A DNA stretch of 46,554 nt from Gammaproteobacteria bacterium (GTDB taxonomy: Bacteria; Pseudomonadota; Gammaproteobacteria; Arenicellales; JAANXG01). Below are positions 4,889-46,253 of this stretch, one piece after another; within the stretch, counting starts at the first letter, position 1, and each line of letters starts with the position of its first letter. The notes beneath the pieces are model-generated. The model was not told where the DNA came from. It worked only from the letters and a program-made list of their open reading frames with translations, and did not search any database. The stretch spans positions 1-46,554 of the forward strand of contig JAHEIO010000027.1 in NCBI GenBank assembly GCA_024639325.1, read 5' to 3'. Both the position numbers and the translations under genes were made by a program.

Positions 4889-5025
4889 AATTCACAACAG
4901 GCGGGACCCGGATATGACAAATATCCGCTGCACCGACCGGAACGCGTCGTTTATGGCAAAGACGGCGGCAAACAGAGACCTTCTAACGAGACCCCTTTTG
5001 TCCTATCCTATCGCCCCGAAAATCC

Positions 5026-5096
5026 GGTCGGGCCCGTTTTCTTGGTCGGGCCCGTTTTCTTGGTCGGGCCCGTTTTCTTGGTCGGGCCCGTTTTCT

Positions 5097-5104
<8 letters not shown>
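5026..5104. repeat. 18-bp tandem repeat, four copies plus partial, derived from the tRNA-Pro 3' end
   Basis: Four exact copies of GGTCGGGCCCGTTTTCTT lie at 5026-5097. A fifth partial copy, GGTCGGG, is itself the 3' end of the tRNA-Pro gene. Read on the tRNA strand, each unit repeats CCCGACCAAG, so every copy carries an imitation of the tRNA acceptor end with its CCA. Each unit also contains the palindrome CGGGCCCG. The array is transcribed as the trailer of the tRNA-Pro precursor unless a terminator intervenes. Confidence 0.95.
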
Positions 5105-5173
<69 letters not shown>

Positions 5174-5290
5174 GACGCTTTCAGCCCCCCGTACGATAAG
5201 GTTTCGGAGCCGCGAGCACAAGGGGTGCGACCATACGCGTTGACCTCGAACATCGTCAACGCAACATCAATCAAATGAGAGAGTGTGCGA

Positions 5291-18689: not shown

Positions 18690-20846
18690 CTAATATCGGA
18701 CCCGACGGCTTTCGATATCCAGTCTAGCCGGGGTCCCCTGGGTTAATGCAACATTCAGCCAGCCGTCCTGGACCGAGCCGCTGCGGTTCCGAAACATGTC
18801 GTTACAGTCGTCCGCCAGCTGCGACACCATTTCCTCGACCGCAACGGCAGCGCCGTCGGACTGCAATTCCAGAGTCATGCCACCCTGGATGTCGAACATG
18901 TTTCCGGGCTGCACGAGTTGCAATTCGACGCCGCGCGCACGGAACGCTTCGTCTGCAATGGATAAACCGGCGCTTTTCATGGCAACGACCACGAAACCTT
19001 CCCTTCCGATGGCGCTAAGGAGACGGTTGTCTTCGCTCAACACAAGCCCGGATTCTTCACACAGTCCGAATCCGTAGCGCACATTTTCCTCGGCACAGGC
19101 AACCACCAGGCGGCCCAGACGGCTGCGCGCAACGAAGTTCTGATCGACGATCCCCGCCTCGAACAGACCTAGCCCCGGTTCCATCACCATGCCCTCGGAA
19201 CCGGCGTCTTCGGAGGCGCCGAATCGAAGCGCCTCGAAACTATCGCCTTCTGCAATCATCGGTTGACCGAACGCCGCAGCGGCACCGCCTATGGCGATCA
19301 GGTTGGTGCCCTGTTCGAATGCACCGATGAGGTGTCGCAACACCGGCGTCACATCGCCGCGAAAGATCAGGACCTTGGTCAGACGGCGCTGGTTGCCCCC
19401 GGGAAGAAGTATCGTTCCCATCTGCCCGAGGCTTCGCAGAAAACCGTTGTCCCGATTGCGCTGCTCGATGTTGTTCTCGGTGACGTCCAGTTCTTCCGCG
19501 GAAACGTCGATCCGGCGCAGCCAGTCCACATATTCCCTCGCGACCTGCCTTGTAATCCCGGAGGCGGTAGCCATGACTCCGATCGGTTCCCGCAGATAGG
19601 GTCTCAGCGAGTCGACGTTCCGTTCACGCCACTTGAGCGGCGAATTGCCCAGCAGCACGATCTGCGAGGACGGCGCACGTTCCGCATGGTGGAGATGGAT
19701 CGGCGTCGGGAACCGGCTTGCCCGCAGGCTGTCACCGCGATTGATATGCAGCCGATAATCGATCATCGTGTAACGCATCCGACCGTCGCGTATCGCTTTC
19801 AAAGCGCGGGATTGACGGCGCACGCGCTCGAGTTCCACGCACCATTCCACGGCGCCCTTGTCCGGCCACGAGCTGACGCTGTCACGCACGTAACGCCTGG
19901 TATCCGCCCTGGCAAGGCGCTGCATCAGATCGAGCAGAGTGTATATACCGAACGCACAGCGCTTGACCGGGGCCGGTGAACGCAGCGACGAACCGGAAAC
20001 ACGCACCGGCTTTTTGTCGGCGTCCGGTGTGACGCGGTTACTCCGCAGATCGATCCGGTCCCCGTCATCGAGATAGGAAATAGTAACGTCCTCTATTCCG
20101 TGTTCGCTGGTATTGAGCGTGTGCGACAGATCGACAACGATGACGCCGGTTTCCCCTCGCACGACGGCGTTTTCACCCTCGACAATCAGCGCCGTGTTTT
20201 CATCGATTCCGTAGCCCAGCGATTCACCGCACGCGTTGACTGCGGCTACCAAGCGACCGATCCGCCCGCGCGCAATGAAGTGCTGATCGATCACTCCCCA
20301 TGGAAAGAAACCGAGCCCTTTCCCCAGCGCCAGGCCCGGGACATCAGGGTCATCGACGATTCCGTAGCTCAGGGCCTCGTTGGACGTCCCCCCCAGAATC
20401 ATGTGCCGGGACATCATTGCCGCACCCGCGCTCGATCCTGCCACCAGTCCGCCCGAGGCGTACATCACCCTGATGGCTTCGAGCAGAGGTGTCTCCGAGT
20501 CATTCTGTACAAGAGAGCGCACGATTCTGGACTGGTCGCCGCCCGTAAAGAACACCCCACCGCAGGAACCGACCAGATCGACAAGGTCCTGATCACGGGC
20601 GGAACCCCGCTCCTGCCAGAACAACGGCATCAGCTCCGCTGTGAAGCCGTTTCCGATGAAGCTGTCCACGGTCTCGGCCCCGACCTCTTGCGGGATTTGG
20701 GATGCTACCGGTATCACCGCAATCCGTCCGCCGCACAAAGGCCTGATCGCATCGAATACGGCGGCGTTATCCGCTTCCAGTCGGCCGCCCACAATGGCCA
20801 GGCGACCCGCCTGGGATGGAATTTCCGTTGAGTGCCGTCGCCCCAT
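18690..20846 (-). CDS. cphB: tandem cyanophycinase-like protein with one active and one degenerate S51 domain
   Basis: Cyanophycinase is a serine-type exopeptidase that cuts the storage polymer cyanophycin to beta-Asp-Arg. This 718-residue protein is over twice the usual length (about 270-300). Domain 1 (about residues 12-250) has the nucleophile motif GSSAGA (Ser139) and DQHF (His189), together with FFTGGDQSRI, so it should be active. Domain 2 (about 393-660) repeats the fold with LLPGGNQRRLTKVL and GLFEAGIVDQNFVARSRLGR. There GSSAGA is replaced by GGAAAA (520-525) and the catalytic His by Asn570, so it is probably catalytically dead. A linker of about 140 residues with basic stretches joins them. 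The gene is divergent from cyanophycin synthetase across a 131-bp gap. Domain 2 may bind polymer or shape a dimer. Confidence 0.85.
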   Translation of the reverse strand: MGRRHSTEIPSQAGRLAIVGGRLEADNAAVFDAIRPLCGGRIAVIPVASQIPQEVGAETVDSFIGNGFTAELMPLFWQERGSARDQDLVDLVGSCGGVFFTGGDQSRIVRSLVQNDSETPLLEAIRVMYASGGLVAGSSAGAAMMSRHMILGGTSNEALSYGIVDDPDVPGLALGKGLGFFPWGVIDQHFIARGRIGRLVAAVNACGESLGYGIDENTALIVEGENAVVRGETGVIVVDLSHTLNTSEHGIEDVTISYLDDGDRIDLRSNRVTPDADKKPVRVSGSSLRSPAPVKRCAFGIYTLLDLMQRLARADTRRYVRDSVSSWPDKGAVEWCVELERVRRQSRALKAIRDGRMRYTMIDYRLHINRGDSLRASRFPTPIHLHHAERAPSSQIVLLGNSPLKWRERNVDSLRPYLREPIGVMATASGITRQVAREYVDWLRRIDVSAEELDVTENNIEQRNRDNGFLRSLGQMGTILLPGGNQRRLTKVLIFRGDVTPVLRHLIGAFEQGTNLIAIGGAAAAFGQPMIAEGDSFEALRFGASEDAGSEGMVMEPGLGLFEAGIVDQNFVARSRLGRLVVACAEENVRYGFGLCEESGLVLSEDNRLLSAIGREGFVVVAMKSAGLSIADEAFRARGVELQLVQPGNMFDIQGGMTLELQSDGAAVAVEEMVSQLADDCNDMFRNRSGSVQDGWLNVALTQGTPARLDIESRRVRY

Positions 20847-20905
20847 CTAAGTGTGCGTCTTGTAAATTCTCATTAAATTCGAAAACAGGATATTATCAGC
20901 AATAA

Positions 20906-20925
20906 CCCGTCCGGTGAGAGACGGG
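20906..20925 (+). promoter_or_regulatory. hairpin in the cyanophycin divergent intergenic region
   Basis: CCCGTC (20906-20911) pairs with GACGGG (20920-20925) around an 8-base loop, about 52 bp before the cyanophycin synthetase start and within the 131-bp gap that must hold both divergent promoters. It could be a leader hairpin or a protein site. I see no known riboswitch. Confidence 0.3.
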
Positions 20926-20977
20926 CGTGAAAAGCCGTCGTCAACAACGCGCATACGACTCCAAGCGAGGATGTAAG

Positions 20978-23770
20978 ATGAAGATTTTAGCTACCACGGT
21001 GTTTCGTGGCCCCAATATCTATGCACTGTTTCCGGTAATTCGACAAACGCTGGACCTGGGTGACCTGGAGAACTGGCCAACGGGACGGCTGGGAGAAGAT
21101 TTCGTAAACGGCCTGGTGGAGAATCTTCCCGGCCTGCAGGAACACGGTTGTTCGTATCAGGTGCCCGGTGGATTCATTCGACGCATGCGCGAGGACGAAG
21201 GGACATGGCTGGGACATGTGATGGAGCACGTTGCACTGGAACTACAGAACATCACCGGTGCGAACGTCACCTTCGGCAAGACTCGATCGACCGACGGTGC
21301 GCCGGGCCACTACGATGTCGTGTACGAGTACGAGGGCGAACAGGTAGGACTGGAAGCGGGTCGCCTGGCCGTCGACCTGGTTCATCATCTGTTACCTCGG
21401 GATCTGCGACCCGACGATTCCCGGGGCCGGGAATTCGAGTTCGGCAAAGAAAGGGACGACTTTATTCGCTTCGCACAGAAGCGGGCGCTGGGCCCCAGCA
21501 CCGCCTCGCTCGTCAAGGCGGCGGAGCAACGCGGCATTCCCTGGCTTAGGCTCAATGACCAAAGCCTCATTCAACTCGGCCACGGCTGCCATCAACGACG
21601 CATCCAGGCCACCATCACCGGCAACACTTCATACGTATCGGTGGAACTTGCGTCAGACAAAGAGGAAACCCACCGGCTGCTTGCGGACCTGGGGCTGCCC
21701 GTACCCCGCCAGGCGCTGGTTTACAGGCTGAGGCGCGCCCAGAAGGCAGCCGAGCGCATCGGCTACCCGGTCGTAGTAAAACCGCTGGACGGCAATCACG
21801 GCCGGGGGGTCACCATAGACGTGCAAACCCCCGAACAGCTGGAAGTCGCCTATGACAATGCCAAGGTGCATGGCGACGGAATCGTCATCGAGAGCTATAT
21901 CCCAGGATTGGATCACCGGCTGCTGGTGGTCAACGGCAAGCTGGTAGCGGCGGCCAAGCGGGTGCCGGGCCACGTGCTGGGAGACGGCAAACACACCATC
22001 GAGGAACTGGTGGACGATATCAACCGCGACCCGCGGCGAGGAGTCGGCCACGAGAAAATCCTCACCCGGCTCGAATTCGACCATCAGGCCGACCGGCTGC
22101 TCGAGTTCAAAGGCTACACACGCAGGACGGTCCCGGGCGAAGGTGAGACCGTTTACCTGCGCTCCACCGCCAACCTGTCCACGGGCGGCACGGCCATCGA
22201 CGTCACCGACATCATCCATCCCGATAATCGCGAAATGGCGGAGCGTGCCATCCGCGCCGTTGGTTTGGACGTCGGCGGCGTGGATTTCATCACCACGGAC
22301 ATCGCGAAGTCCTATCACGAAACCGGCGGCGCCATTTGTGAGGTCAATGCCGCCCCCGGCTTCCGCATGCACGTCGCGCCCAGCGAGGGGGAACCGCGTG
22401 ACGTGGCCACCCCGGTCATAGAGATGCTGTTTCCCGAGAGCACCGACGGCCGCATTCCCATCGCCGGCATCACCGGGACCAATGGAAAAACCACCACCGC
22501 GCGAATGCTTTCGCACATCATGAAGATGGCCGGGCACACCGTGGGGCTGGCATCCACGGACGGCGTCTACATCGACGGCCGCCTCACGGTAAGTGGCGAT
22601 ATGACCGGACCCACCGCAGCCAGGATGGTCCTCAGCGATCCCACGGTGGACGCGGCGGTGCTCGAAACCGCGCGGGGAGGCATGCTGCGCAGTGGCCTGG
22701 GCTACCGGCAGTCCGACGTCTCCGCGTGCCTCAACGTGAGTGCCGACCACCTCGGACTGCGCGGCGTCGACACCCTGGAACAGCTGGCCGAAGTCAAGCG
22801 CGTCGTGATCGAGGTGGCCCGCGGCACGGCTATCCTCAATGCCGATGACCCGTTGTGTTTGAAAATGGCCGACTACAGCAACGCGGACAAACTGTGCTAC
22901 ATCACGATGAACCGGACGCACCCCCTGGTGCGCGAACACATCCAGGCCGGCGGGCTGGCGGTGGTCCTGGAGCAGGGAATCAACGGCCACATGATCACGT
23001 TGTATGACGAGAAAGGTCACCACATTCCGCTGCTGTGGTCTCACCTGATTCCGGCCACCCTCGAGGGCCGTGCCCTGCACAACGCGCAGAACGCGATGTT
23101 CGCCGCCGCACTGGCCTACAACCTCGGTATCGACCTCGACAATATCCGGCACGGGCTGCGCACTTTCGACACCACGTTTTTTCAGGCGCCGGGCAGACTC
23201 AATGTGTACGACGAACTGCCGTTCAAGGTCATCATGGACTACGCCCACAACCCGGCGGCGGTCAAGACCATCTGTGACGTCGTCGACAGATTCGACACAT
23301 TGGGACAGAAGATCGTCGTGCTCACCATGCCCGGCGACCGCCGCGACGAGGATATCGAGGAAGTGGCCAGGATCGCGGCCGGGCATTTCGACCACTACAT
23401 CTGCCGCAGGGACGACAACCGGCGCGGGCGTGGGGACAAAGAGGTGCCCGAGATAATCGCCCGGTCGCTGCGCGAGTCGGGGGTTGACGAGCAGCACATC
23501 CAGATCATACCCGACGAACAGGAGGCTATTGGTACCGCACTGCGCGCGGCGCGAAGCGGCGATCTCCTGCTCGTGCTGGCCGACCAGATCGCTCGGTCTT
23601 GGAAGCAGATCATCTACTTCAAGCCCGACGAAGACGTCGTCGCCGCCCGGGTCAAACCCGCCGCCGTGGAAATTCCCCCGGACATCATCGGCGATTTCGA
23701 ATTCGACGAGGATATGGAGCTGATCCGCGACGAACGCGGAGTGCGCATCGCCAGGGAAACCGAAGACTAG
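20978..23770 (+). CDS. cphA: cyanophycin synthetase
   Basis: CphA polymerises aspartate and arginine into cyanophycin, a cytoplasmic nitrogen reserve, using two ATP per Asp-Arg unit. This 930-residue protein has the full three-part layout. An N-terminal domain starts MKILATTVFRGPNIYALFPV. An ATP-grasp domain (about 165-490) with VVVKPLDGNHGRGVTIDV adds Asp. A Mur-ligase-like domain with P-loop GITGTNGKTTTARM (about 497) adds Arg and contains LETARGGMLRSGLGY, ADHLGLRG and MDYAHNPAAVKTI. The start is the ATG at 20978 with GAGG seven bases upstream; a GTG-type extension upstream is unsupported. It begins a plus-strand operon with the truncated homologue and the isoaspartyl peptidase and faces the cyanophycinase gene. 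Confidence 0.97.
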   Translation: MKILATTVFRGPNIYALFPVIRQTLDLGDLENWPTGRLGEDFVNGLVENLPGLQEHGCSYQVPGGFIRRMREDEGTWLGHVMEHVALELQNITGANVTFGKTRSTDGAPGHYDVVYEYEGEQVGLEAGRLAVDLVHHLLPRDLRPDDSRGREFEFGKERDDFIRFAQKRALGPSTASLVKAAEQRGIPWLRLNDQSLIQLGHGCHQRRIQATITGNTSYVSVELASDKEETHRLLADLGLPVPRQALVYRLRRAQKAAERIGYPVVVKPLDGNHGRGVTIDVQTPEQLEVAYDNAKVHGDGIVIESYIPGLDHRLLVVNGKLVAAAKRVPGHVLGDGKHTIEELVDDINRDPRRGVGHEKILTRLEFDHQADRLLEFKGYTRRTVPGEGETVYLRSTANLSTGGTAIDVTDIIHPDNREMAERAIRAVGLDVGGVDFITTDIAKSYHETGGAICEVNAAPGFRMHVAPSEGEPRDVATPVIEMLFPESTDGRIPIAGITGTNGKTTTARMLSHIMKMAGHTVGLASTDGVYIDGRLTVSGDMTGPTAARMVLSDPTVDAAVLETARGGMLRSGLGYRQSDVSACLNVSADHLGLRGVDTLEQLAEVKRVVIEVARGTAILNADDPLCLKMADYSNADKLCYITMNRTHPLVREHIQAGGLAVVLEQGINGHMITLYDEKGHHIPLLWSHLIPATLEGRALHNAQNAMFAAALAYNLGIDLDNIRHGLRTFDTTFFQAPGRLNVYDELPFKVIMDYAHNPAAVKTICDVVDRFDTLGQKIVVLTMPGDRRDEDIEEVARIAAGHFDHYICRRDDNRRGRGDKEVPEIIARSLRESGVDEQHIQIIPDEQEAIGTALRAARSGDLLLVLADQIARSWKQIIYFKPDEDVVAARVKPAAVEIPPDIIGDFEFDEDMELIRDERGVRIARETED

Positions 23771-23773
23771 CCG

Positions 23774-25459
23774 ATGCGGTGTCTGGATTCGCGCCGCCTG
23801 ACCGGCCCCAACCTGCTGTGGGACAAGCCTGGTGCCGTCATCGACGTCGTATTCGATGACGACGACCCTGACGTGGCCATCGATGCCTGGCTCACGCAGG
23901 TGCGAAGGATGCTCGACGCGGTCGGTTGGGACTGCGGCGACACCTGTGTTCGCCGCTTCAAGGACGGCGCCAGCCTGGCGATCTCGGCGCCCGTCGACGC
24001 GCTGTATTCCGCCACCGATATCAACGACTGGGCATTCGACGCCGCTGACTACATTGTCGGCGGTGGATCGGAACCGGACGTGACGGCAGACGCGAAAAAG
24101 TTTCGCGATTCGATTCGCGATGAAAGCAAGCCCAATGCGATCGCGCTGCGTGCCGAGGCGATCGCCCGGGATATACCCGTGCTGATGGATTCGGATGAGA
24201 TTTCGGTAGGGTTGGGACGGTACAGCAGAAACTGGGCTCTCGACACCGTCCCCGATCTATCCGATGTTCCATGGGACGCACTGGGAAGCATTCCGGTTGG
24301 GGTGATTACCGGCACCAACGGCAAGACCACCTCGGTGCGCCTGGCCGCGAGCATCGCGCGGGCAGCGGGCTACACCGTGGGGCTGAGTTCAACCGATTGG
24401 ATCGCCGCCGGCGACACCGTCCTGGACGCCGGCGACTACTCGGGCCCCGGCGGCGCAAGGGCCGTGCTGCGTGATCGCAGCGTCGATCTGGCGTTGCTGG
24501 AAACCGCCCGGGGCGGATTGCTGCGCCGAGGACTGGCCGTGGATCGCGTGGATGCGGTGCTCATTACCAATGTCGCGTCGGATCATCTCGGTGAGTTCGG
24601 CGTGCACAACGTTGACGAGCTTGCCGACGTCAAGTGGATAGTTACGCGCGCTCTCGGGGAGGACTCCGCCCTGGTGCTCAACGCGGACGATGATCGCCTT
24701 GCCGAAAGAGCGAAAGGATCGGCGTTCAACATTACCTGGTTCAGCCCGGATTCCGACAACCCGTTGATTGCCGAGCACGCCGGAGCGGGCGGTACGATAT
24801 GTACCATTACCGATGGTTCGATCACCGTAACGCAGCAAGGGTCCAGCCGTGTGGTTATGGAGATAGACAAAATACCCATTACCTTCAAGGGAGCCGCACG
24901 TCACAATGTGTACAACGCTCTTGGGGCGGTCGGTCTGGCCCTCGGCCTGGGTATTTCGATGCCCAGCATCCGCGCCGGATTGTGCGCTATGGACCCCAAC
25001 GACAACCCCGGACGCTGCAATATCTATGACATCAAAGGCGCCACTTTTCTCGTCGATTTTGCGCACAATCCACACGGCATGACGGCGTTCGTCAATATGG
25101 CCGCGGCGATCCCGGCCAGCCGCCGGACGCTGCTCATCGGACAGGCAGGTGACCGAAGCGACAAGGATATACGGGATCTCGCGGTTACGGCGTGCGCATC
25201 CCGTTGGGATCGGGTCGTCATCAAGGAGATGGATGACTATGCCCGCGGGCGCGATAGAGGCGAGACGGCAGATATTCTTTACAATGAATTCACCGCGCAG
25301 GGAATACCGCCGGATAAAATCGACCGGGAGCGTCACGAGCTCGAAGCGGTGCGAAAACTGGTAAACGACTCGCGATCGGGCGAATTGACCGCCCTGCTCA
25401 TCCACGAGCGCCGGCGCGAGGTGCTGGATTATCTGAGCAAAATAGTGACAACGAACTGA
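23774..25459 (+). CDS. Mur-ligase-only cyanophycin synthetase-like protein (CphA')
   Basis: A 561-residue homologue of the C-terminal half of CphA. The P-loop GTNGKTT (180-186) and the motifs LETARGGLLRRGLAV, NVASDHLGEFGVHN and VDFAHNPHGMTAFVNM mirror CphA, so ATP use and ligation are likely. There is no ATP-grasp domain. The first 170 residues keep only a faint trace of the CphA N-terminal domain (LTGPNLLWDKPGAV, like FRGPN in CphA). It starts 3 bp after the CphA stop. Similar truncated copies paired with CphA are known in proteobacterial cyanophycin clusters. It differs from cyanobacterial CphA2, which keeps ATP-grasp. It might add a different amino acid or re-use beta-Asp-Arg dipeptides; its reaction is not known to me. 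Confidence 0.85.
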   Translation: MRCLDSRRLTGPNLLWDKPGAVIDVVFDDDDPDVAIDAWLTQVRRMLDAVGWDCGDTCVRRFKDGASLAISAPVDALYSATDINDWAFDAADYIVGGGSEPDVTADAKKFRDSIRDESKPNAIALRAEAIARDIPVLMDSDEISVGLGRYSRNWALDTVPDLSDVPWDALGSIPVGVITGTNGKTTSVRLAASIARAAGYTVGLSSTDWIAAGDTVLDAGDYSGPGGARAVLRDRSVDLALLETARGGLLRRGLAVDRVDAVLITNVASDHLGEFGVHNVDELADVKWIVTRALGEDSALVLNADDDRLAERAKGSAFNITWFSPDSDNPLIAEHAGAGGTICTITDGSITVTQQGSSRVVMEIDKIPITFKGAARHNVYNALGAVGLALGLGISMPSIRAGLCAMDPNDNPGRCNIYDIKGATFLVDFAHNPHGMTAFVNMAAAIPASRRTLLIGQAGDRSDKDIRDLAVTACASRWDRVVIKEMDDYARGRDRGETADILYNEFTAQGIPPDKIDRERHELEAVRKLVNDSRSGELTALLIHERRREVLDYLSKIVTTN

Positions 25460-25477
25460 ACCGGTACAGGAAATTTC

Positions 25478-26326
25478 ATGCCTAGCGCGATCATCATACA
25501 CGGCGGTATCAAGGAATTCGAAAACATCAGCGGCTTCGAACAAGACTGCCAGGATAGTCTGCGCGACATTGTCGGCAGAGGCTACGAGGCGTTGATCACC
25601 GACGGGGCACGCGCCGCGGTGTTGGCAGCGGTTACTGCTCTCGAGGACTGCGAATTGTTCAACGCGGGAACCGGATCCAGGGTTCAGTCGGACGGTGAAA
25701 TCCGCATGAGTGCCTCCCTCATGGACGCGACGAACAACCGGTTCTCCGGAGTGATCAATATCCAGTACGTCAAAAACCCTGTCCTCGTCGCCGCGGAACT
25801 GGCCTCCGAAAAAAACACCGTCCTGGCCGGGTATCCCGCGACACGATATGCACGGGGCAAGGGATTCCGGAGCCACAATCCGTATACCGAACGCCGATGG
25901 CTTGAACACCTGGAAGGCAGGCAAGGCCTGGCGGGAACGGTTGGCGCGGTAGCGTTAGATGAACAGGGCCGGATGTTCGCGGCCACCTCCACCGGCGGCG
26001 TCGGCGGCGAGATACCGGGTCGGGTCAGCGATTCGGCGACCGTGGCCGGCAACTACGCCAGCACCGCCGCTGCCATATCTTGTACCGGCGCGGGCGAGGA
26101 AATCGTGAACCTTGGCGTGGCTGCGAGAATCACCACCCGCAGATTGGACGGACAGACGCTGGAGCAGTCCGTCAGGAACACAATCAGAGAGGGTATGGAG
26201 TTCGATTATACGTTCGGGTTGATCGCGGTTGACCAAGCCGGCTCGACCATCGCGGACCAAACCCGCGGACAGACGCTGTTTGCCTCCGCCGACGCGAGGG
26301 GCGTTACCGTATTCGGCTCGCTATAG
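25478..26326 (+). CDS. iaaA: isoaspartyl peptidase/L-asparaginase (Ntn hydrolase)
   Basis: A type 2 asparaginase/isoaspartyl dipeptidase that hydrolyses beta-Asp-Arg, the product of cyanophycinase, to free Asp and Arg. The precursor has 282 residues and is expected to cleave itself before Thr154 in GTVGAVALD, which becomes the nucleophile. FNAGTGSRVQ, ATSTGGVGGEIPGRVSDSAT and the GNYAS segment match the family. At 282 residues it is a little shorter than EcAIII (about 320), mainly in the alpha-subunit C-terminus. It starts 18 bp after the CphA' stop and is the last gene of the cyanophycin operon, completing polymer breakdown. The ATG at 25478 gives MPSAIIIHGGI. Confidence 0.93.
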   Translation: MPSAIIIHGGIKEFENISGFEQDCQDSLRDIVGRGYEALITDGARAAVLAAVTALEDCELFNAGTGSRVQSDGEIRMSASLMDATNNRFSGVINIQYVKNPVLVAAELASEKNTVLAGYPATRYARGKGFRSHNPYTERRWLEHLEGRQGLAGTVGAVALDEQGRMFAATSTGGVGGEIPGRVSDSATVAGNYASTAAAISCTGAGEEIVNLGVAARITTRRLDGQTLEQSVRNTIREGMEFDYTFGLIAVDQAGSTIADQTRGQTLFASADARGVTVFGSL

Positions 26327-32548: not shown

Positions 32549-33487
32549 TTACCCGGTGGAATTGGGCGCGGCTACCCGGTCGAACTCCCGTTGAGACAGA
32601 ACCGCTTCTTCCACAACCCAATCATGGAAAGCCCGGATGTTCGGCTCGCTCTCCCGCCCCTTGGGGCAGACGAAATAATAGGCCACGTTGGACGGACTGC
32701 TGACGTCGAACAGCTTAACGAGCCTGCCCGTCGCAAGGTCATCCTGAACGTGGGCGCTTCTCGCCAGCGCCACGCCGAAATCATCGATCGCCGCCTGGAC
32801 CGCCATACTGGTGTCAGGGAATTTTGATCCTTTGGGCAGAGATTTGATCTCCACCCCCGCATACCTGAACCAGTCCCGCCAGCGCGGACAAATATCTTGT
32901 GAATGTCGATAGATCAATGGGTACCTGAGCAGGTCTTCCGGCGCCTCGGGCGGCATGATTCGGCTCAGGAACCTGGGGCTGCAGACGGGGAATACGTACT
33001 CTCTCAGGATCAGTTCTTCCGACAGGCCGGACCACCCGCCATGCCCTAGACGGATTCCCACATCGACCTCGTGCATGCTGAAATCGATGAGCTCATCGGT
33101 GGTGGAAATCCACACATTGATGCTTGGGTACTGCTGCGAAAACTGGCCCAACCGGGGCACCAGCCACTTGAATGCGAATGACTGAAGCAGGCTGACCCGA
33201 AGTGACACCGACCGGTCATCGCCGGGACGAAGTTCCGTCAGCTTGGCGGACAGCCTTTTGATGAAATCCCGAACGATAGGGGCCAATACATGCCCCGCCT
33301 CGGTGAGTCGCAGGCTGCGGCCCCGGCGCAGGAACAATTTGAGTTCCCAAAGTTGCTCGATGTGTCGAATTTGATGGCTAACCGCGCTTTGCGTGATGCT
33401 CAGTTCCTCCGCGGCGCGGGTGTAGCTCAGGTGGCGAGCCGCACTTTCGAAGGCGCGCAGTGCGGCGGTCGGGGGCAGTCTCACCAT
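32549..33487 (-). CDS. LysR-family transcriptional regulator (GcvA-like)
   Basis: A 312-residue LysR regulator. The N-terminal winged helix reads LPPTAALRAFESAARHLSYT, then RAAEELSITQSAVSHQIRHI, typical of the GcvA subgroup. The C-terminal periplasmic-binding-like effector domain follows (SLRVSLLQSFAFKWLVPRLG, VDVGIRLGHGGWSGLSEELI). The ATG at 33487 fits the family start. Fourteen bases upstream is the perfect palindrome CATGAGTT-TT-AACTCATG, which is also at about -66 of the divergent cassette promoter. LysR proteins typically bind such a shared divergent site, repressing themselves and activating the neighbour, so this regulator probably controls the microprotein/DUF1127 cassette. Convergent with the aminotransferase, which it might also serve. 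Confidence 0.92.
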   Translation of the reverse strand: MVRLPPTAALRAFESAARHLSYTRAAEELSITQSAVSHQIRHIEQLWELKLFLRRGRSLRLTEAGHVLAPIVRDFIKRLSAKLTELRPGDDRSVSLRVSLLQSFAFKWLVPRLGQFSQQYPSINVWISTTDELIDFSMHEVDVGIRLGHGGWSGLSEELILREYVFPVCSPRFLSRIMPPEAPEDLLRYPLIYRHSQDICPRWRDWFRYAGVEIKSLPKGSKFPDTSMAVQAAIDDFGVALARSAHVQDDLATGRLVKLFDVSSPSNVAYYFVCPKGRESEPNIRAFHDWVVEEAVLSQREFDRVAAPNSTG

Positions 33488-33500
33488 CGCCTCATCCTAG

Positions 33501-33518
33501 CATGAGTTTTAACTCATG
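33501..33518. promoter_or_regulatory. palindromic operator upstream of cassette 1 and of LysR
   Basis: CATGAGTT (33501-33508) and AACTCATG (33511-33518) are perfect inverted repeats with a TT spacer. The palindrome ends 21 bases before the -35 box of cassette 1, centred near -66 of the predicted start. That is a classic LysR activation position, although the spacing is not the exact T-N11-A form. A diverged copy lies at the same distance in cassette 2. Confidence 0.65.
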
Positions 33519-33539
33519 TATATGATGAAAATATTTCCT

Positions 33540-33568
33540 TTGAATTTGCGCATTTTCGTCCATACTAT
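33540..33568 (+). promoter_or_regulatory. sigma70-type promoter of microprotein/DUF1127 cassette 1
   Basis: TTGAAT (33540-33545) and TACTAT (33563-33568) with exactly 17 bp between. The start is expected near 33576, leaving a leader of about 62 bases before the microprotein ATG. The second cassette has a promoter in the same relative place. Confidence 0.6.
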
Positions 33569-33579
33569 GGGACATAGTG

Positions 33580-33598
33580 AATGGTGCAGTGCACCATT
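33580..33598 (+). promoter_or_regulatory. 5'-leader hairpin of cassette 1
   Basis: AATGGTG (33580-33586) pairs with CACCATT (33592-33598) around a CAGTG loop, immediately after the predicted transcription start. Cassette 2 has the same loop on a shorter stem. It can be read as a DNA palindrome or as an RNA hairpin in the leader. Confidence 0.55.
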
Positions 33599-33637
33599 AT
33601 TTTAAATTGTTTTGTTTATCATTATGAGGAGATGTTC

Positions 33638-33724
33638 ATGGCTTGCCGCGTGCCGGTCACTTGGGGCGCTATTTACGTGGGCACCGTCACGATTATGACC
33701 CCGCTGGCGATGCTCTTCGCCTGA
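33638..33724 (+). CDS. 28-residue hydrophobic microprotein, cassette 1
   Basis: A very small ORF with a strong AGGAG ribosome-binding site six bases before its ATG. It encodes MACRVPVTWGAIYVG followed by TVTIMTPLAMLFA and stops with TGA. About 20 residues form one uninterrupted hydrophobic stretch, enough for a single transmembrane helix. An independent homologue of identical length lies at 34388-34474, sharing the AxYVGxxxIxTxxAxLxA pattern, which is the best evidence that it is translated and selected. A DUF1127 gene with its own ribosome-binding site follows 29 bp downstream. I do not recognise a named family. A small membrane-associated regulator or partner of the DUF1127 protein is possible; this is inference. 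Confidence 0.7.
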   Translation: MACRVPVTWGAIYVGTVTIMTPLAMLFA

Positions 33725-33753
33725 TCACCCTCGCGAACGACAGGAGACTATCA

Positions 33754-34089
33754 ATGAACTTGATCATGAGAGGAATTCACGCGGCCATCGAACCGTTCCG
33801 GTACCGAGCCCCGCTGATCGAACACGACACACACGGCGCGAACGATTCGTCCGGCGCCAACGTGCTGATCAGCAGCTTCAAGCACAGACGGCGGGTGAAT
33901 CGTGCTATTCACGAACTCAGCAGGCTCAGCAACGCAACGCTCAAGGATATAGGCGTCGAGCGGGGCAACATACCGCAGCTCGTTGAAGAGATGATGGAAG
34001 ATTCGGTGAATTCGTTGAAAAACCGGGAATCCGGAGAACATAAAAATGCTGGTGTGAATTACCGGGTCAGGGGTGGTGCCACGGCATAG
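33754..34089 (+). CDS. DUF1127 domain protein, cassette 1
   Basis: A 111-residue protein. The DUF1127 (YjiS-like) motif lies at about residues 48-83: RRRVNRAIHELSRLSNATLK, then DIGVERGNIPQLVEEM, an arginine-rich helix followed by the D-I-G-[IV]-x-R turn. An N-terminal extension of about 45 residues and a C-terminal tail rich in Asn, Gly and Arg flank it, so it is longer than the usual 45-75 residues. The ATG at 33754 has CAGGAG upstream; a longer frame from 33643 overlaps the microprotein and is rejected. DUF1127 proteins in alphaproteobacteria bind RNA or affect phosphate and carbon metabolism, but this type is not characterised. A terminator follows 26 bp later. Confidence 0.85.
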   Translation: MNLIMRGIHAAIEPFRYRAPLIEHDTHGANDSSGANVLISSFKHRRRVNRAIHELSRLSNATLKDIGVERGNIPQLVEEMMEDSVNSLKNRESGEHKNAGVNYRVRGGATA

Positions 34090-34115
34090 CCTACGACCCG
34101 CCTGTTCCTCCCAGA

Positions 34116-34141
34116 AAGTCGCTTGATTCAGCGGCTTTTTT
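34116..34141 (+). terminator. rho-independent terminator of cassette 1
   Basis: AAGTCGCT (34116-34123) pairs with AGCGGCTT (34130-34137), with one G-U pair, around a 6-base loop. A run of six T follows (34136-34141), 26 bp after the DUF1127 stop codon. Confidence 0.85.
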
Positions 34142-34250
34142 GATGGCGGCCAAATTGCCTGAATTCAAAGGTAGGTCTTTATAACTTATTGATTAATATT
34201 GGTGATTTCTGAAGGAGCGTGTATTTACCAACCAATGACACTCAGTGATT

Positions 34251-34268
34251 CATGAGTAATTATTCATG
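34251..34268. promoter_or_regulatory. palindromic operator of cassette 2 (diverged copy of 33501-33518)
   Basis: CATGAGTAATTATTCATG is an 18-bp palindrome with one mismatch between its arms. It starts exactly 39 bp before the cassette 2 -35 box, the same distance as in cassette 1, and the bases after it also align with cassette 1. Confidence 0.6.
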
Positions 34269-34289
34269 ATTATCATGAAATCTTTTCTT

Positions 34290-34318
34290 TTGATTTCAAC
34301 AACATGTAGCACTATAGT
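34290..34318 (+). promoter_or_regulatory. sigma70-type promoter of microprotein/DUF1127 cassette 2
   Basis: TTGATT (34290-34295) and TATAGT (34313-34318) with exactly 17 bp between. Both boxes align with those of cassette 1 relative to the upstream palindrome and the leader hairpin. Confidence 0.65.
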
Positions 34319-34332
34319 TACTGTCAAGTTCA

Positions 34333-34347
34333 TGGTGCAGTGCATCA
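34333..34347 (+). promoter_or_regulatory. 5'-leader hairpin of cassette 2
   Basis: TGGTG (34333-34337) pairs with CATCA (34343-34347) around the same CAGTG loop as cassette 1. One former G-C pair has become G-U, which keeps the RNA stem but breaks the DNA palindrome. That favours an RNA role. Confidence 0.5.
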
Positions 34348-34387
34348 AACAAATTATTCCAGTCAATATCTTAACGAGGAAATGAAC

Positions 34388-34474
34388 ATGGCATACAGCA
34401 TGCTCGTAAAAACCGGCGCCGCTTATGTCGGCGCAATCGCAATACTGACCGCTTTCGCCACCTTGCTGGCGTAG
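34388..34474 (+). CDS. 28-residue hydrophobic microprotein, cassette 2
   Basis: The paralogue of the ORF at 33638-33724, again 28 residues: MAYSMLVKTGAAYVG followed by AIAILTAFATLLA, then TAG. GAGGA lies seven bases before the ATG. The C-terminal 18 residues are fully hydrophobic, fitting one short transmembrane helix with the positively charged Lys near its N-terminal side. Its leader matches cassette 1 in promoter, hairpin and distances. The nucleotide sequences have diverged widely while length, helix and start context are kept, which argues for selection on the peptide. A DUF1127 gene follows 55 bp downstream. The function is unknown. Confidence 0.75.
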   Translation: MAYSMLVKTGAAYVGAIAILTAFATLLA

Positions 34475-34529
34475 CTGGTCTCGGCATCTAGTATAGATCT
34501 TACAGTTACAGGACCCAGGAGCTTGATTA

Positions 34530-34760
34530 ATGACCCTTTTCCACACAATCCGACGTCGTTTAATGATTAATCGTGCAGTTCGCGAACTGTCAGGATTGAA
34601 CAACACCATTCTTCAGGATATTGGCATCGATCGCGCCAACATCGCCGAAGTGGTGGAAAAAATGATCGATTCCAACGCCGCTCCAAGCGTGGGCTCAACA
34701 CAGGCTGGCGTTGGATACGCAACCTCGACTTACACAACCGCTCAGGGCGCCGCTGTATAG
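34530..34760 (+). CDS. DUF1127 domain protein, cassette 2
   Basis: A 76-residue protein with the DUF1127 motif at about residues 8-45: IRRRLMINRAVRELSGLNNT, then ILQDIGIDRANIAEVVEKMI. The tail is rich in Ala, Thr and Gly (ASTYTTAQ-like composition) and differs from cassette 1. The ATG at 34530 has AGGAG nine bases upstream. It is the more canonical, shorter of the two DUF1127 proteins here and is followed by a strong terminator 40 bp downstream. Both cassettes thus end their own transcript. It probably acts as a small basic nucleic-acid-binding or regulatory protein, by family analogy only. Confidence 0.87.
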   Translation: MTLFHTIRRRLMINRAVRELSGLNNTILQDIGIDRANIAEVVEKMIDSNAAPSVGSTQAGVGYATSTYTTAQGAAV

Positions 34761-34799
34761 TCGTCTGTTGCCGCAGAGACACGCGTCTCCTCCTCGAAG

Positions 34800-34832
34800 A
34801 GAGCCGCTGAGAGATCAGCGGCTCTTTTCTTT
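34800..34832 (+). terminator. rho-independent terminator of cassette 2
   Basis: AGAGCCGCTGA (34800-34810) and TCAGCGGCTCT (34815-34825) form a perfect 11-bp stem with a GAGA tetraloop, followed by TTTCTTTT. This is a strong intrinsic terminator. Confidence 0.95.
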
Positions 34833-34975
34833 TAGGACTCGAGCCCGTATCGGTCACATCCCGTATGCCATTTCGGCGTCCCGGGTCACCGGGCCCCTGT
34901 CACGCGGGAGCAATTCCCGCTCTGAGACGGGCGCGGCTATCGACGACCAGATCAAACATCGCTTGGATGACGGAA

Positions 34976-44797: not shown

Positions 44798-45433
44798 TTA
44801 TCGTGCCGGGCAGGAAACACCCGTACCACCCAATCCGCAATATCCACCTGGATTTTTTGCCAGGTACTGCTGATGATAATCCTCAGCGTAATAAAACTCT
44901 GCGCCATCCAGAACTTCTGTCGTTATCGACGGGTACCCGGATGCCCTGAGCATCTCGTCGTACATTTCCCTTGTGGCCAACGCGGCCAATTTTTGCTCTT
45001 CGCTGTAAGTATAGACGCCGGAGCGGTACTGCGTTCCAACATCGTTTCCCTGCCGCATGCCCTGCGTCGGGTCATGGGACTCCCAGAATACCTTCAGCAA
45101 TGCCTCATAGGTAACGACGGCGGGATCAAAAACCACCAGCACGACCTCATTATGCGCCGTCTTGCCGGTGCAGACTTCGCGGTAGGTCGGATTCGCCGTA
45201 TACCCTCCACTGTACCCAACCGCCGTAGTGTACACGCCTTCAAGTTCCCAGAAACGCTTTTCCGCGCCCCAGAAGCAACCCATTCCAAACATGGCCCGTT
45301 GCATGCCTTCCGGAAATGGGGACGTCATCGGATTGCCGATTACGAAATGAGTTTCGGGAACCGCGATGCGATGTTCGCGGCCGGGCAATGCGCTGCCCCG
45401 TTCGGGCAGTTCTGTTTTGTCGAATCCAAACAT
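44798..45433 (-). CDS. msrA: peptide-methionine (S)-S-oxide reductase, cytoplasmic
   Basis: A 211-residue MsrA, which repairs methionine-S-sulfoxide in proteins. The active-site motif GCFWGAEK carries the catalytic Cys, and [40 protein letters not shown] and the C-terminal [13 protein letters not shown] complete the family. The tail [16 protein letters not shown] holds the resolving cysteines. There is no signal peptide. I chose the ATG at 45433 ([13 protein letters not shown]); a TTG at 45439 is also in frame. It is divergent from a second, exported MsrA across about 170 bp. Confidence 0.97.
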
Positions 45434-45605
45434 TGTCAACTTGTACCGGGCCCGGGCGGAGCTGTCTTGGGCTCGAAAATGCGAAATTTGCCATGAAAAG
45501 CCCGAAAAAACCAGTCTGTAACAGCCAAAATGTTACAGTTCAGTAAGAAACATTTCCGACGATTGTCCGGTCTTAGTTCAAAACCTCAAGCAGAGAGCCA
45601 ACTCA

Positions 45606-46253
45606 ATGAAAGCACGTTATTTAAACCTACTATGCATCGGCGCTATCGGTGGCGCATTCTTTCTGGCAAGCGTACAGGCGCAGAATACGGCAATATCGAC
45701 GGAAGCGGAGGCCTCTCTGGAGGGCCTTTCCAGGGCGACTTTTGCCGGCGGCTGTTTCTGGTGCATGGAAGGCCCATTCGACAAATTGGACGGTGTAGTG
45801 TCCACGACTTCGGGTTATATCGGAGGCCAAACCGATAATCCCAGTTACCCGCAGGTGTCTTCCGGGAGCACCGGCCACACCGAGGCGGTGCAAATCGTCT
45901 ACGACCCTGCACAGATCAGCTATGAAGAACTCCTCGACGTGTTCTGGATCAACCACGACCCGACCGAGTCCGACGGACAGTTTTGCGACAAGGGCAGCCA
46001 GTATCGGCCGGGCGTTTTCTATCACGATGAGGATCAGAAGCGCGCCGCCGAAGCGTCGAAGGCGGATGTCGAACGAACCAAAACTTTTGATGAGCCGGTG
46101 ATGACCGAGATAACCCTGGCCGGCACTTTCTACCCGGCGGAAGACTATCACCAGGATTACTACGTGAGGAACCCGATCCGTTACAAAATGTATCGCTACG
46201 GCTGCGGCCGGGACCGGCGGCTGCAGCAGTTGTGGGGAATCGCAGAACACTGA
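45606..46253 (+). CDS. msrA: peptide-methionine (S)-S-oxide reductase, exported
   Basis: A second MsrA of 215 residues with an N-terminal signal peptide, MKARYLNLLCIGAIGGAFFL then ASVQAQ, so it acts in the periplasm. The catalytic motif is GGCFWCMEGPFDKLDGV, with an extra Cys two residues after the Cys-Phe-Trp; SGYIGGQTDNPSYPQVSSGS, FWINHDPTESDGQFCDKGSQ and AEDYHQDYYVRNPIRYKMYR follow. The C-terminus lacks the two-cysteine tail of the cytoplasmic copy, so recycling is likely different. E. coli repairs periplasmic methionine with MsrP; here an exported MsrA may do this. The ATG at 45606 is preceded by a weak AGAG. Confidence 0.95.
   Translation: MKARYLNLLCIGAIGGAFFLASVQAQNTAISTEAEASLEGLSRATFAGGCFWCMEGPFDKLDGVVSTTSGYIGGQTDNPSYPQVSSGSTGHTEAVQIVYDPAQISYEELLDVFWINHDPTESDGQFCDKGSQYRPGVFYHDEDQKRAAEASKADVERTKTFDEPVMTEITLAGTFYPAEDYHQDYYVRNPIRYKMYRYGCGRDRRLQQLWGIAEH

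Follow-up and report, generated by a model that had tools for sequence, protein, structure and literature searches.

A conserved single-helix microprotein encoded before DUF1127 genes and its associated LysR regulator in a gammaproteobacterial order

Two cassettes in tandem

The stretch of DNA analyzed here (the window) has 46,554 nucleotides (nt) and comes from a gammaproteobacterium of the order Arenicellales (contig JAHEIO010000027.1, positions 1 to 46,554, assembly GCA_024639325.1). It carries two cassettes in tandem, each with a palindrome, a probable promoter, a second palindrome in the leader, an open reading frame (ORF) for a hydrophobic peptide of 28 residues, a gene for a DUF1127 protein and a stem followed by a T run, and a gene for a LysR-type regulator runs divergently from the first cassette (Table 1). 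A preliminary description, made from the sequence alone, had seen in this arrangement a duplicated cassette with kept architecture and had suggested that microprotein and DUF1127 gene form a selected functional unit. The two 28-codon ORFs are indeed of equal length, with ATG starts and ribosome sites, and both downstream ORFs pass the Pfam cut-off for DUF1127. Of the order of elements that had been described, the palindromes beginning at 33501 and 34251, the boxes resembling -35 and -10 sequences and the 3' stems with T runs can all be seen, but the automatic terminator scan lists neither stem, and it should be considered that the promoter and terminator totals of the automatic scan over 4 kb are at chance level (3 promoter-like sites, against 2.3 in shuffles). 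The microprotein ORF is separated from the DUF1127 gene by 29 nt in cassette 1 and by 55 nt in cassette 2, and the same scan lists no terminator-like site between them, so that a common transcript is likely. The tandem arrangement itself holds for the window's genome (G000) and its nearest relative (G001); G002 and G003 have each of their two cassettes on a different contig. A third DUF1127 domain is found elsewhere in the window's genome, with no family peptide upstream.

Table 1 Features of the two cassettes and of the adjoining regulator gene, with positions in the window
Feature	Position	Strand	Basis and remarks
GcvA-subfamily LysR regulator	32549..33487	(-)	divergent from cassette 1; NF008352 331.7 bits, cut-off 288
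LysR operator, cassette 1: CATGAGTTTTAACTCATG with ATGAAAA downstream	33501..33531	(+)	conserved 5' of microproteins
Probable promoter, cassette 1: -35 TTTGAA, -10 CATACT, spacer 16	33539..33566	(+)	inferred from sequence; boxes of relatives similar; absent from automatic scan list
PhaR-type operator, cassette 1: TGGTGCAGTGCACCA	33582..33596	(+)	2 mismatches to published 17-mer; 2/300 shuffles equal
Microprotein 1, 28 aa, one predicted membrane helix: MACRVPVTWGAIYVGTVTIMTPLAMLFA	33638..33724	(+)	ATG start, GAGGAG ribosome site
DUF1127 protein 1, 111 aa	33754..34089	(+)	PF06568 E 4.9e-8, 33.0 bits, cut-off 23.3
Probable intrinsic terminator, cassette 1	34115..34141	(+)	fold -13.4 kcal/mol (34110-34150), T run; not in automatic scan
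LysR operator, cassette 2	34251..34281	(+)	conserved 5' of microproteins; whole-genome operator search
Probable promoter, cassette 2: TTGATT-17-TATAGT	34290..34318	(+)	promoter scan
PhaR-type operator, cassette 2: TGGTGCAGTGCATCA	34333..34347	(+)	1 mismatch to published 17-mer; 0/300 shuffles
Microprotein 2, 28 aa: MAYSMLVKTGAAYVGAIAILTAFATLLA	34388..34474	(+)	ATG start, GAGGAA ribosome site
DUF1127 protein 2, 76 aa	34530..34760	(+)	PF06568 E 4.6e-7, 29.9 bits, cut-off 23.3
Probable intrinsic terminator, cassette 2	34796..34833	(+)	fold -27.9 kcal/mol (34795-34842), T run; not in automatic scan

A selected family of microproteins

The two 28-codon ORFs are members of a single family of one-helix microproteins, which is conserved and so far undescribed. 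As had been noted for the pair, their DNA has diverged while the peptides are related: 49 of 87 nt are identical, and the ungapped BLOSUM62 score of 55 is reached by none of 5000 shuffles. When the two ORFs are compared codon by codon (n = 29, stop included), 4 pairs are identical, 10 synonymous and 15 replacement. Across the family, the ratio of nonsynonymous to synonymous differences (pN/pS) is 0.00-0.47 in 12 of 14 microprotein pairs, one pair being identical and thus uninformative; the pair L076/L078 gives a pS of 0.44 and a pN of 0.20. The entropies at codon positions 1, 2 and 3 are 0.98, 0.59 and 1.69 (n = 32), the invariant glycine is encoded by all four of its codons (n = 32), and positions in the second half of the peptide (L20, T21 and the hydrophobic run) are kept despite codon drift. 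Start codons and sequences resembling ribosome sites are found across the family. Judged by these codon patterns, selection maintains the 28-residue ORFs as a family of proteins. Between G000 and its nearest relative, microprotein 2 differs by 3 silent changes and no replacement, and the two DUF1127 genes show pS values of 0.17 and 0.16 with a pN of 0.05 each.

One membrane helix is predicted in 34 of the 35 members (19-residue hydropathy above 1.6). Lysine or arginine precedes the conserved glycine in 34/35 members and follows it in 0/35. By the positive-inside rule, the positively charged end of a membrane helix faces the cytosol, and the N-terminus is thus predicted to be cytosolic.

The preliminary description had proposed a search for the peptide directly upstream of DUF1127 genes in related genomes, and this search is positive. 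Our survey of the window's genome and its relatives covered 71 of 72 DUF1127 places in 60 genomes (one weak place in G035 was left out); these are 71 distinct domains, as the raw numbers of 80 domains and 33 matches include nine domains repeated through overlapping loci. A family peptide lies within 700 nt 5' of 26 of the 71 domains at an E-value threshold of 0.05, which an ORF before DUF1127 at another place in G035 (L034) does not reach, so that it was not counted. A profile made from a 20-row alignment of the peptides (A1) has 35 matches in 30 of the 109 genomes of the order, with one or two copies per genome, and DUF1127 comes next after 32 of the 34 matches examined (the 35th, G046:C50, was left unexamined). 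DUF1127 does not follow a solo peptide in G035 (L122) or a match in G430 inside a 134-residue frame, the latter being taken as false. The upstream survey also showed longer variants of the peptide in G028, G033 and G050, which score below the cut of the A1 search. In two of these genomes (G033, L008; G028, L025), a single DUF1127 gene is preceded by a tandem of two microprotein ORFs, upstream of which a LysR-type palindrome is found; the tandem suggests a role for the peptide in its own right.

The cassettes span six families of the order and one family outside it, in which two genomes (G272 and G152) have the peptide before DUF1127. When a sample of the class was searched, 23 of 369 genomes matched at E 0.1, and beyond the window's own genome DUF1127 came next only in these two; most of the other matches lie inside frames of more than 100 residues, and three (G284, G165, G261) are short frames without DUF1127. 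In a sample of the phylum, 6 of 299 genomes matched at E 0.01, namely the window's own and five with matches inside frames of 243-431 residues. A microprotein distributed throughout the class or phylum is therefore rejected, as nothing else credible was found in the 369- and 299-genome samples. A set of 70 DUF1127 loci from other families of the phylum (domain located in 69) gave no family match upstream, the best E-value being 1.8. None of 20 members matches Pfam at E 0.5, and the single NCBIfam match among the 20, at E 0.054, is to an outer-membrane repeat model and is taken as chance; the family is new to these two curated profile libraries.

The partner LysR and its operator

A divergent LysR gene lies 128-302 nt upstream of 24 of the 34 cassettes (32 in the order and two outside), with 58.6-100% identity to the window's LysR over the part available. 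As for the remaining cassettes, two are second tandem copies behind a cassette that has the LysR gene, two are at contig ends and six have no adjoining LysR. We built a tree from 46 LysR rows taken from beside DUF1127 genes, in which the genes of G003 and G032 enter twice. The microprotein-linked LysRs form one clade with a support of 100/100 (25 rows, 23 genes), and the other 21 rows fall outside. The association is also seen where the genes are apart: each of nine genomes tested that have no such LysR adjoining the cassette (six of family f11, as well as G028, G033 and G056, the last having a cassette without the peptide) holds exactly one LysR of 57-63% identity at E 1e-60. In G028 this gene is found about 1.1 kb upstream of the cassette and is divergent from it. 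Among 13 genomes without the module that were searched in the same way, 10 have no LysR match at E 1e-60, and G014 has one at 60% identity, with no cassette seen beside the gene; the matches of G015 and G023 are weaker (39-48%). DUF1127 loci of the order that lack the peptide have a LysR in the opposite direction in 20 of 44 cases, with 28-55% identity. When 18 neighborhoods were compared, no gene cluster besides LysR was common to more than 4 loci (LysR itself was found in 14 of the 18, that of L259 being missed as a longer overlapping frame had been kept), and further genes as part of the unit are thus rejected.

The palindrome upstream of the cassettes has the form CATGArT-N4-AYTCATG, and its relaxed form ATGA-N-TCAT is found before 32 of the 35 members. 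The three members without it are one with only 99 nt upstream, one partly masked and one solo copy with a poor match. A search of 22 whole genomes with CATGARTNNNNAYTCATGNNNNNNATGANNA, allowing up to 2 mismatches, returned 23 rows, of which 21 are distinct, the duplicates being due to an 86-nt contig overlap in G003 and to a palindrome in G445 read on both strands. Twenty of the 21 distinct sites are at cassettes; the other, in G005, starts within an unrelated coding frame. The reversed pattern, used as a control, gave one match in the 22 genomes. It should be noted that two genomes with cassettes, G026 and G448, gave no row, as their boxes are more diverged, and that diverged sites elsewhere would likewise escape the search. 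In five of the six f11 genomes, the same palindrome also stands about 120-140 nt before the unlinked LysR gene (L276, L278, L279, L280, L281), and none was seen at L277 (G035); this suggests autoregulation.

As 20 of the 21 operator sites are at cassettes, the LysR appears to be dedicated, and we infer a regulator with essentially one target besides itself. The window's LysR also matches the Pfam domains HTH_1 and LysR_substrate. A function as the glycine-cleavage regulator GcvA would mean control of gcv genes; that the operator was met at cassettes and once in the unrelated frame speaks against this, within a search that more diverged sites would escape.

A PhaR-type box in the leader

The second palindrome had been described as a leader hairpin. 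Its symmetry is perfect in cassette 1 only and imperfect in cassette 2, and we find no conserved RNA structure in the leaders (mean fold z 0.11, n = 35) and no folding signal from the ORF to DUF1127 (mean z 0.05, n = 34; 60 dinucleotide shuffles per sequence in both cases). With no folding signal, the reading of the leader as an RNA hairpin or attenuator is set aside as unlikely, with a reservation for cassette 1 that is given below. The palindrome is better read as a putative DNA site for PhaR, the repressor of polyhydroxybutyrate (PHB) storage: it agrees with the published motif, it is seen again upstream of phaR and of a phasin-like gene in the same genome, and the genomes in which it was met all carry PhaR.

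Leaders were scanned against the 17-mer published for Ralstonia, YTKNTGCRNYGCANMAR (PMC12849132), with 300 shuffles each. A box with 0-2 mismatches is found in 15 of the 35 members (0-3 of the 300 shuffles being as good), and the other 20 have 3-5 mismatches. The longer variants of G028, G033 and G050 stand apart from these 35 and have 5. Four genomes of the window's genus contribute eight of the 15; the remainder are in G017, G018, G027, G032 and G037 and in the two genomes from outside the order. In G018, G027, G032 and G037 the palindrome is shifted toward the 5' side and falls between the putative -35 and -10 boxes. The PhaR gene is present in 11/11 box-bearing genomes, and no box was seen in any of the 10 scanned cassette genomes of the order that have no PhaR match (for G042 the scan covered only 99 nt upstream). 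The window's own genome has a PhaR at E 1.5e-29 (PF07879), and at its phaR locus (L204) one box precedes phaR and a tandem pair of boxes precedes the adjacent ORF; from its sequence, with no profile search, we take this ORF to be a phasin. In the same genome, TGGTGCNNTGCANCA with up to 1 mismatch gives 57 rows against 9 for the reversed pattern, palindromic sites being counted on both strands.

Exact PhaR-type boxes were also observed 110 nt (L208, G000:C184:22955) and 53 nt (L209, G000:C225:66381) before two ORFs that share LFSRYIGIDYSGAQTPTSSLKGL; these are possibly another repeated PhaR-controlled gene.

Proposed function and its alternatives

A selected peptide, its place upstream of DUF1127, one LysR clade and one operator are shown by comparison among genomes. 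We consider it probable that together they make up a small, dedicated operon for regulation at the inner membrane, which LysR would switch on and which PhaR would repress in some of the bacteria that make PHB, with peptide and DUF1127 protein acting at the membrane. In the proposed sequence of events, LysR, encoded divergently or in trans, would activate the operon through CATGArT-N4-AYTCATG. Where a lineage has PhaR and a TGC-N3-GCA box that lies within the promoter or directly downstream of it, PhaR would block transcription until PHB granules sequester it. The microprotein would span the inner membrane once, with its charged N-terminus in the cytosol, and microprotein and DUF1127 protein may act together there, tuning an inner-membrane sensor or transporter. 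This last step is drawn by analogy with YjiS, a DUF1127 protein of the Salmonella inner membrane (PMC11707872), and with DUF1127 proteins of Agrobacterium, for which in vitro binding to the sensor kinase PhoR is reported (PMC12501420). PhaR sites near the promoter or start accompany repression in Sinorhizobium meliloti (PMC12542648) and in Ralstonia (PMC12849132); in the latter, one gene is also activated by PhaR, through sites placed elsewhere (PMC12849132). The pair of microprotein and DUF1127 gene stands as first described, but as a unit it was drawn too small, since the LysR and in some lineages the PhaR-type operator belong to it too.

Several observations weigh against this proposal and should be considered. 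Coding selection is clear family-wide but not for microprotein 1 on its own: between G000 and G001 it shows 3 replacement changes and 1 silent, which are too few to judge its own constraint. As many as 45 of the 71 DUF1127 domains have no family match upstream, and relatives lacking the ORF had been named beforehand as a finding that would count against the unit; nearly all of these loci have a different LysR or none. The solo microprotein of G035 (L122, G035:C1:3331247-3331318) has a ribosome-site-like sequence, a poor upstream operator and no DUF1127 in about 1.5 kb after it, and G056 has retained operator and DUF1127 and lost the microprotein; these two cases argue against an obligate pair. 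Thirteen cassette genomes carry PhaR without the box, and PhaR control would thus be lineage-specific. The 3.2 kb of the phaR locus hold two further places with 2 mismatches, so that the motif is loose and single weak matches mean little, and the palindrome of the cassette 1 leader, followed by T, is flagged as terminator-like by the automatic scan (33580-33598). Finally, a Rhodobacter DUF1127 protein is reported to bind RNA (PMC12501420).

A more specific version, which we regard as rather doubtful, is a two-input switch in which LysR would sense a metabolite and PhaR the stored PHB, and in which the microprotein would seat DUF1127 at an inner-membrane sensor or transporter, thereby tying carbon storage to membrane signaling.

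Among other explanations, the ORF might be a regulatory upstream ORF (uORF), in which translation and not the product controls transcription into DUF1127, as at duf1127_1 of S. meliloti. The order of elements is the same and the length nearly equal (28 versus 29 residues; PMC12218461), gaps of 29 and 55 nt would permit coupling, and the terminator-like palindrome of cassette 1 would fit. We nonetheless find this unlikely. Residues are kept while codons drift, the C-terminal half included, whereas in S. meliloti scrambling of codons 17-24 was without effect (PMC12218461). Neither the leaders nor the stretch from ORF to DUF1127 carries a folding signal, and in the four genomes where the palindrome lies between the promoter boxes it would not be transcribed. 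Moreover, a solo microprotein and tandem pairs occur, and no family match precedes DUF1127 at the 70 loci from other families, among which the presence of the S. meliloti orthologue is not established.

The microprotein might also be a hydrophobic peptide of the type I toxin kind, restrained by the neighboring regulator or by an antisense RNA. A small protein with a single hydrophobic helix would suit this role, tandem copies occur in places, and there is one promoter-like site on the opposite strand (34299-34272). We hold this to be very improbable, as the order of genes is stable, with one LysR clade and one operator over six families of the order and one outside, as genomes of the order have only one or two copies, and as promoter-like sites are no more frequent than by chance. 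That the microprotein is a surface peptide of PHB granules, a minimal phasin, would agree with the TGC-N3-GCA box common to microprotein and phasin-like gene in the same genome, but ten cassette genomes of the order retain the microprotein with no PhaR match (PHB synthase was not searched for), and we give the idea little credence. That the ORFs arose by chance, or are conserved DNA that yields no product, would explain the lack of a Pfam or NCBIfam family; this can be dismissed almost entirely, as it is rejected by the shuffles (0/5000) and the codon patterns, with start codons and ribosome-site-like sequences kept across the family.

How the proteins of the large bacterial family DUF1127 act is a matter of dispute, with RNA binding and protein binding as the two views (PMC12501420). 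A co-encoded membrane peptide under an apparently single-purpose regulator offers a handle, as the binding partner of the peptide may lead to the target of DUF1127, and the boxes suggest that PHB status can gate such a module.

Other features of the window

Positions 18690-26326 hold a run resembling cyanophycin metabolism, with a long cyanophycinase-like ORF, two tandem cyanophycin-synthetase-like ORFs and an isoaspartyl-peptidase-like ORF; these names are our presumption from the look of the sequences, with no profile search. Two ORFs at 44798-45439 (-) and 45606-46253 (+) form a divergent pair, both presumably peptide methionine sulfoxide reductase A, and two ORFs of one cluster are arranged likewise in G002 (L269_11, L269_13). 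At about 5010-5240, just 5' of an ORF that we take to be folD, a short tandem repeat stays in frame and reads VGPVFLVGPVFL on one strand and KKTGPTKKTGPT on the opposite one.

Relation to known systems

VtlR of Brucella is likewise a LysR that activates small DUF1127 genes (PMC12595884). It differs in that one regulator acts on several DUF1127 genes and on the small RNA AbcR2, and in that the reported motif, CAATGCAGCCATGCA, is not the cassette operator; a microprotein is not mentioned in the available portion of that paper (PMC12595884). In S. meliloti, the sORF26 uORF is a translated ORF of 29 residues that shares one leader with the DUF1127 gene duf1127_1 (PMC12218461). The window has the corresponding 28-codon ORF just upstream of DUF1127, but the S. 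meliloti ORF acts through its start, as RNA in attenuation, and its second half is without a role, whereas here the protein is conserved along the ORF (PMC12218461; the comparison is one of descriptions). That kind of attenuation further involves a masking RNA structure and a Rho-dependent stop; as to the structure, the folding analysis of the cassettes gave no signal. None of the 70 other-family DUF1127 loci has a 29-codon ORF with the C11, A15 and T17 of that uORF.

The PhaR (AniA) regulon is similar in that the boxes fit the Ralstonia motif with 0-2 mismatches in 15 of 35 members (PMC12849132), and the palindrome published for S. meliloti resembles them (PMC12542648). The window's genome has both the PhaR gene and boxes at the inferred promoter or start region (2 and 1 mismatches of 17). 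DUF1127 is, in contrast, absent from the main text of both papers (PMC12849132, PMC12542648; term count 0). YjiS of Salmonella and the SDPs of Agrobacterium are small DUF1127 proteins with an inner-membrane location or sensor-kinase binding, and the available portions of these papers make no mention of a co-encoded membrane peptide (PMC11707872, PMC12501420).

Small membrane proteins with a single helix and fewer than 50 residues are themselves familiar, as in MgrB, MgtS and YohP, and none of these is known to us to be encoded next to DUF1127. The preliminary description had not recognized the pairing as a described system, and this agrees with the literature matches listed (openly licensed papers, preprints being outside, seen in part), among which there is no account of the microprotein, nor of a conserved membrane peptide, of LysR and operator as a unit with it, or of a PhaR box on a DUF1127 operon. 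What is already known is a LysR beside or controlling DUF1127, as with VtlR, and a translated 29-codon ORF before DUF1127, as in S. meliloti.

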